Assembly: GCA_029258795.1 (NCBI GenBank)
Contig: JAPDKB010000007.1
Location: 62,001-126,000 of the forward strand
Direction: 5' to 3'
DNA: 64,000 nt
From: an archaeon
GTDB lineage: Archaea; EX4484-52; WAPT01
Below the pieces are notes generated by a model. The model was given only the letters and a program-made list of their open reading frames with translations. It was not told the origin of the DNA and ran no database searches. A program made the position numbers and the translations under genes. Within the stretch, counting starts at the first letter, position 1. Each line of letters opens with the position of its first letter. Below, piece by piece: positions 2,108 through 21,067 of the stretch.

Positions 2108-2272
2108 TGGCGAGCCCGGGGGGATTTCCAGCAGGGCTCAAAAGCCATCAGGTTTTCTTGTAGAAACCCTGATTTTGAACCCCCGACCACTGGCTCCGAA
2201 GGCCAGCGCTCTTTCTGACCGCACAGCTTTACAGAGCGTGGCCGTGCGGAGTCCAGACTGAGCTACGGGCCC
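2108..2272 (-). tRNA. tRNA-Arg (anticodon TCG) with probable introns in the D-loop and T-loop
   Basis: On the minus strand the acceptor 5' strand GGGCCCG (2272-2266) pairs with CGGGCTC, followed by discriminator G and encoded CCA (ending 2108). The D-stem is GCTC/GAGC. The anticodon stem CTGGC/GCCAG encloses loop CTTCGGA, giving anticodon TCG. The T-stem is GGGGG/CCCCC. Two loops are far too long: 48 nt between the D-stem strands (2212-2259) and 56 nt between the T-stem strands (2124-2179). Removing about 39 nt and 49 nt leaves a normal 77-nt tRNA with T-loop TTCAAAT. Both insertions contain internal hairpins (CCGCAC/GTGCGG; ATCAGG/CCTGAT). Exact splice sites are not fixed. There is no canonical 37/38 intron. 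Confidence 0.85.
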
Positions 2273-2350
2273 GCTTGATATACATCAAAATTAAGTCAGT
2301 CATTCTTTAAAATTCTTTCTCTGAAACGCAGCATGCAAAGAGCAAGAATT

Positions 2351-20944: not shown

Positions 20945-21067
20945 GGGGCCGTGGGGTAGCTTGGCCAGCCTTCCGGCTTCGGGTGCCGGCGACCCCGGTT
21001 CAAATGCCGCGGAGCAAGCTCCTTGTTTCCAGTTACTTCGCGGCTGAGAATCCGGGCGGCCCCACCA
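20945..21067 (+). tRNA. tRNA-Pro (anticodon CGG) with a probable T-loop intron
   Basis: Acceptor GGGGCCG (20945-20951) pairs with CGGCCCC (21057-21063), followed by discriminator A and encoded CCA. The anticodon stem CCGGC/GCCGG encloses TTCGGGT, giving anticodon CGG. The T-stem CCCGG/CCGGG encloses 53 nt instead of 7. Removing 46 nt leaves TTCAAAT and a 77-nt tRNA. The insertion contains a 6-bp GCCGCG/CGCGGC helix and a GGAGC/GCTCC hairpin. Next to the T-stem, TTC can pair with GAA, leaving A-rich and T bulges like a relaxed bulge-helix-bulge. The same T-loop position is interrupted in the tRNA-Arg gene. Confidence 0.88.

Follow-up and report, generated by a model that had tools for sequence, protein, structure and literature searches.

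The window, a 64,000-nt stretch of archaeal DNA, contains a tRNA-Arg(UCG) gene that is interrupted twice. The gene occupies 165 nt of the minus strand, from its 5ʹ end at 2272 to 2108, and encodes its own CCA (2110-2108); the first-pass annotation had placed it correctly at 2108-2272 and left the strand unsaid. A custom mechanical scan, whose criteria are four stems plus a few conserved bases and nothing else, returned the anticodon TCG with a D-loop of 48 nt, an anticodon loop of 7 nt and a T-loop of 56 nt. All stems pair: 7 bp in the acceptor (one of them G-U), 4 bp in the D stem, 5 bp in the anticodon stem and 5 bp in the T stem. The earlier description of four paired stems, an encoded CCA and the two enlarged loops was thus reproduced. 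The gene lies within a 310-kb contig, with a coiled-coil gene on one side and glmS on the other. By eye, the minus-strand sequence GAAAGAATTTTAAAG, about 35-45 nt upstream of the gene (window 2273-2345), resembles an archaeal BRE/TATA promoter.

Read from 2272, the exons are GGGCCCGTAGCTCAGTCTGGAC, AGAGCGCTGGCCTTCGGAGCCAGTGGTCGGGGGTTCAAA and TCCCCCCGGGCTCGCCA, with an insert at each junction. Exon 1 (2251-2272, minus strand like all parts of the gene; tRNA positions 1-20a) supplies the 5ʹ strands of the acceptor and D stems and the D-loop as far as GGAC, and pairs with exons 2 and 3. Predicted intron 1 (2213-2250) follows in the D-loop. Exon 2 (2174-2212; positions 21-59), delimited by comparison with sister genomes and by the ARAGORN splicing test described below, comprises the 3ʹ strand of the D stem, the anticodon arm (UCG), the 5ʹ strand of the T stem and UUCAAA. 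Predicted intron 2 (2125-2173) interrupts the T-loop, and exon 3 (2108-2124; positions 60-76) completes the T and acceptor stems with their 3ʹ strands and ends in the discriminator G73 and CCA (2108-2110).

The unspliced gene is matched by neither ARAGORN nor the Rfam family RF00005, and ARAGORN makes no call when just one of the two inserts is removed. With both inserts taken out, a canonical tRNA is restored, and ARAGORN calls tRNA-Arg(tcg) of 78 nt including CCA, one more than the 77 nt first proposed for the mature tRNA. The minus-strand fold of the gene is more stable than all of 200 shuffles (200/200; z -4.4). A plus-strand fold of 2108-2272 is not meaningful, as the tRNA gene is on the minus strand.

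Two sister genomes of the same genus, G001 and G002, have an orthologue of this tRNA gene adjoining glmS (L003 and L004), with exons identical to those here; syntenic orthologues with identical exons in two genomes exclude chance. Both orthologues carry a diverged 47-nt insert at the same point of the D-loop, and in both the T-loop is uninterrupted, reading GGGGGTTCAAATCCCCC. These precise empty sites fix the boundaries of the T-loop intron. tRNA-Arg(TCT) confirms the D-loop insertion point, since its gene is interrupted there by an intron in this genome and reads GGACAGAGC, an empty site, in G002 (GGAC|AGAGC at the junction). From the empty sites in relatives, the introns measure 38 nt (2213-2250, between 20a and 21) and 49 nt (2125-2173, between 59 and 60); of the sizes first estimated, about 49 nt stands and about 39 nt is one too many. 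By sequence alone the exact T-loop bond is ambiguous within a repeated AAA; it was placed at 59/60 from the register of the bulge-helix-bulge (BHB) motif and from all other T-loop introns of the genome. Because it is common to the genus, the D-loop intron is old. Elsewhere in the order, the introns of tRNA-Arg(UCG) lie in the D-loop in some members, in the T-loop in others, or in both loops, as in the order-level relative L007.

Sequences able to form splice motifs were found at both junctions. At the T-loop site, a BHB has a central helix UUCA/UGGA (4/4 pairs) and two 3-nt bulges, AA^A and AA^U, with the T stem outside; its inner helix CAGGG/CCCUG sits behind one U-C mismatch next to the bulge. 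At the D-loop site, a central helix CUGG/UCAG (4/4) is accompanied by a 3-nt 5ʹ bulge, AC^U, and a 9-bp inner helix; the 3ʹ site, AA^A, lies in an internal loop, and a proper outer helix is missing on that side, giving a relaxed, HBh'-like form. Owing to the U-C mismatch in one and the missing outer helix in the other, both motifs are relaxed in part. Both sites nevertheless fall within what is accepted for archaeal BHB introns (3-nt bulges with a 4-bp helix, or the relaxed HBh' and hBH forms), both positions, 20/21 and 59/60, are on the published list of non-canonical intron sites (PMC4090602), and the genome encodes an EndA endonuclease and an RtcB ligase. BHB-type pairing at both sites, together with the exact empty sites in relatives, supports the original proposal of two introns leaving a standard tRNA. 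The two observations named at the outset as grounds for abandoning that proposal were the absence of a BHB at both junctions and an intact second tRNA-Arg(TCG); the BHB search that had been recommended found the motifs, and no such second gene was found.

The pairing at these sites recurs in other genes. Of 24 T-loop introns of this genome scored in one fixed register without per-gene optimisation, 22 show all four central pairs and the other two show three, compared with 2.8% of shuffled introns with four. Seven of the 24 had been located by a pattern that fixes some of the tested bases; in the bias-free subset, located through Rfam hits, 17/17 have 4/4 pairs. Among D-loop introns of this genome and its relatives, 8/10 have 4/4 central pairs, against 4.7% expected by chance, and the pairing is kept through base changes (CUGG/UCAG, CUGG/CUGG, CUGG/CCGG and UUGG/CCAA), including a C-G to U-A replacement.

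The predicted energy minimum of the precursor, however, is not the BHB at the T-loop. An alternative exon-intron hairpin of 10 bp, in which GGGUUCAAAA pairs with UUUUGAGCCC, gives -75.5 versus -71.8 kcal/mol for the full BHB fold. This is a real caveat on the in silico folding and no refutation of the predicted splice motif. The 3.7 kcal/mol gap could mean that the D-loop insert alone works as an intron and that the T-loop insert, through the competing hairpin, blocks or regulates splicing; in keeping with this, homology of the T-loop insert to the genome's main family of T-loop introns is not supported (best z 4.3). Yet the 59/60 register yields 4/4 central pairs at the very place used by the genome's other T-loop introns, and no other gene was found to supply tRNA-Arg(UCG), which leaves this explanation highly unlikely.

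A decaying pseudogene, in which the T-loop insert (and perhaps the D-loop insert) is disabling and another tRNA reads CGA and CGG, would account for the failure of standard tRNA finders and for the lack of a T-loop insert in both sister genomes. The codons concerned are in use, 42 times for CGA and 32 times for CGG among the 17,179 codons of the window's genes. A second tRNA-Arg(TCG) gene was absent from this genome among Rfam hits down to E 10 and among pattern hits, so a pseudogene is improbable. Moreover, neither broken stems nor an intact replacement, the marks of a tRNA pseudogene, were seen: every one of the four stems is preserved, as are CCA and the conserved bases of the loops, the exons match those of the sisters exactly, and both junctions can form BHB pairing. 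Finally, 25 other tRNA genes use the same T-loop intron site and cannot all be dead; decay is very unlikely. That unrelated sequence was joined into the gene by misassembly or misbinning has next to no likelihood: although the assembly comprises 23 contigs, at least one of them (C11) bacterial-looking, the gene is embedded in its 310-kb contig between two other genes, and its counterparts in two further genomes of the genus also adjoin glmS and carry a D-loop intron at the identical position. Synteny, the intact exons and the single copy led to the rejection of both the pseudogene and the artefact. The gene is, with high probability, functional and single-copy, with two putative protein-spliced archaeal introns.

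For the precursor, the proposed splicing model is that exon CUGG in the D-loop and exon UUCA in the T-loop would pair with the 3ʹ ends of the adjacent introns, giving two BHB or relaxed BHB motifs. EndA (P0001) would cut the 3-nt bulges and RtcB would ligate the exons, setting both introns free; the T-loop intron is one of many at 59/60. The model is built on gene structure, pairing potential, empty sites, single copy and the presence of EndA and RtcB genes; transcription, cleavage and the mature tRNA are predicted.

T-loop introns are common in this genome. Among 40 archaeal tRNA genes found, at least 26 have a T-loop intron, 4 a D-loop intron and 8 an anticodon-loop intron, and 6 contain two introns. 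The census combined relaxed-threshold Rfam hits, a T-loop intron pattern and the custom scan, covering these searches plus selected stretches, and is hence a lower bound; within it, tRNA-Gly(CCC) was assigned by eye, the scanner's model of tRNA-Leu(GAG) is uncertain, and four tRNA types of bacterial look on contig C11 are omitted. An interrupted tRNA is therefore not unusual for this genome, although the first reading had expected two introns to be unusual for a euryarchaeal-type genome; tRNA-Arg(UCG) is the only gene found here that combines D- and T-loop introns. The tRNA-Leu(GAG) genes (L195, G000:C2:63750-64400; L177) appear to carry a long insert, in or after the anticodon arm. Contig C11, of 9 kb, carries a bacterial-type tRNA array of Thr, Gly, Tyr and Thr (L032, G000:C11:1-1822) and is probably a contaminant despite a reported contamination of 0%.

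In the sister genomes, T-loop introns occur in 7/33 and 9/34 tRNA genes. Across 34 comparable tRNA species, a T-loop intron is present only here in 13, both here and in the sisters in 8, and only in the sisters in none. Ten T-loop introns of the genus, taken from different tRNA species, cluster at z above 6 against shuffles. Homology between introns of unrelated tRNAs favours transfer between tRNA genes over loss of ancestral introns and suggests that most of the 59/60 introns specific to this genome spread recently among its tRNA genes. The homologous introns (TGCTGCGGA...TCCGCAGCTGAAAA) are seen in Glu, Gly, Cys, Ala and Pro tRNAs, and in the sisters in Leu and Glu, and look copied from gene to gene; genome-wide examples in G000 are L048, L053, L153, L147, L057 and L059. 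The window itself holds a second intron-containing tRNA gene, an unannotated tRNA-Pro(CGG) (20945-21067, plus strand) detected by the custom scan and reported by neither ARAGORN nor Rfam. Its 46-nt T-loop intron at 59/60 clusters with those of the Pro(TGG), Cys, Glu, Gly and Ala tRNAs. The T-loop intron of tRNA-Arg(UCG) falls outside this group, and its homology to the main family is unsupported; it could accordingly have been gained here or lost in the sisters, and L007 also has one.

The nearest relatives of the FtsY protein are from metagenome-assembled genomes (MAGs) labelled Nanohaloarchaea, Aenigmatarchaeota and other DPANN, which makes the original "euryarchaeal-type" label doubtful; the lineage is probably DPANN and not euryarchaeal. 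The genome has one RtcB gene (contig C3, E 2e-175) and a single detectable EndA gene (contig C6, L001:1216-1806). Profiles PF01974 and PF02778 and an order-specific profile (the last two at E up to 10) detected no second EndA subunit in this 96% complete genome; a very divergent beta subunit may escape these profiles. Neither a beta gene nor a three-unit fusion, as in the (alpha-beta)2 and epsilon2 enzymes, was seen, the product being one 197-aa protein, and order members with a strong EndA hit carry just a single copy. Reviews associate non-canonical introns with (alpha-beta)2 or epsilon2 EndA and deem alpha4 and alpha'2 enzymes narrow (PMC6379350, PMC4090602); the EndA here is of the type thought to have narrow specificity.

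The catalytic triad of this EndA is also incomplete. Y126 and H143, the catalytic Tyr and His, do not vary among 27 sequences, and the position of the catalytic Lys is Ala or Ser throughout the order (L001, L076-L101), whereas it is Lys in M. jannaschii, N. equitans, ARMAN-2 and M. kandleri. In ARMAN-2 EndA, Ala at this site abolished activity (PMC12397907). As the only EndA found lacks the usual lysine, cleavage cannot be taken for granted. Immediately ahead of the catalytic His, the order's enzymes have an invariant NPYK motif, within an insert of the form NPYKxGxK or, more fully, RG(V/I)NPYKxGxK, and we infer, tentatively, that its Tyr-Lys pair may stand in for the missing lysine.

Precedents exist in Thermoproteales and Nanoarchaeota. 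The two intron positions, the use of BHB motifs, tRNAs with several introns and large-scale intron transposition are already known from Thermoproteales and other archaea, as is intron polymorphism from Caldiarchaeum. In Thermoproteales, single tRNAs can contain multiple non-canonical introns, as in tRNA-Pro(UGG) of Pyrobaculum islandicum; P. calidifontis has 71 introns in 46 tRNA genes, and large-scale transposition of introns between tRNA genes has been reported (PMC4090602, PMC8450103). The genome studied here is similar in having two or more BHB or relaxed BHB introns in one tRNA, non-canonical sites and many affected tRNA genes. It differs in its DPANN-like lineage, in the concentration of introns at T-loop 59/60 (26 of about 40 genes), in a lower number of introns per gene than P. 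calidifontis (about 0.95) and in its single detectable EndA gene, the Thermoproteales enzyme being an alpha-beta pair. Nanoarchaeum equitans is likewise a small-genome archaeon with non-canonical introns, and ahead of the catalytic His in its EndA alpha subunit lies a lysine-rich insert (GVIPKKGKRSEREH) that aligns with the one found here. Its (alpha-beta)2 enzyme, however, has two subunits and keeps the catalytic Lys (STRKK), where the one gene found here has Ala (NIRAK). The epsilon2 EndA of the ultrasmall archaeon ARMAN-2 (Micrarchaeum) has broad specificity and carries on an extra loop, the ASL, a Tyr-Lys pair that is essential (PMC12397907), and a YK pair is present here too. Nevertheless, the ARMAN-2 pair (Y160-K161) belongs to the N-terminal portion of the catalytic unit and K282 remains essential, whereas here the pair is flanked by the catalytic Tyr and His, and Ala or Ser occupies the K282 position. 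Caldiarchaeum populations also show presence or absence of introns between close relatives and two introns in one gene, tRNA-Thr(GGU), where intron gain has been linked to a candidate mobile element (PMC3293823).

Given that two-intron tRNAs are known, the gene alone is a modest addition. In the literature searched, no paper on DPANN tRNA introns was found, though such papers may exist, nor any description of single-site T-loop concentration in a DPANN-like genome or of this unusual EndA. It is conceivable, at somewhat less than even chances, that throughout this DPANN order the tRNA introns of the D-, T- and anticodon loops are spliced by an EndA that is encoded by a single gene, is probably homotetrameric, has lost the textbook Lys and uses instead an invariant Y133-K134 on a new loop between the catalytic Tyr and His, and that with this enzyme one genome of the order recently filled most of its tRNA T-loops at a single site.

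Many tRNA genes in genomes of this kind escape standard tRNA finders, which is a warning for their annotation. The spread of the introns can be put to the test, as at least 13 fixed-site T-loop introns have no counterpart in two genomes of the same genus, homologous introns lie in unrelated tRNAs and exact empty sites are available. The endonuclease poses a further question, since current rules link non-canonical introns to an (alpha-beta)2 or epsilon2 enzyme with special loops, and this order appears to have a single-gene EndA without the usual Lys.
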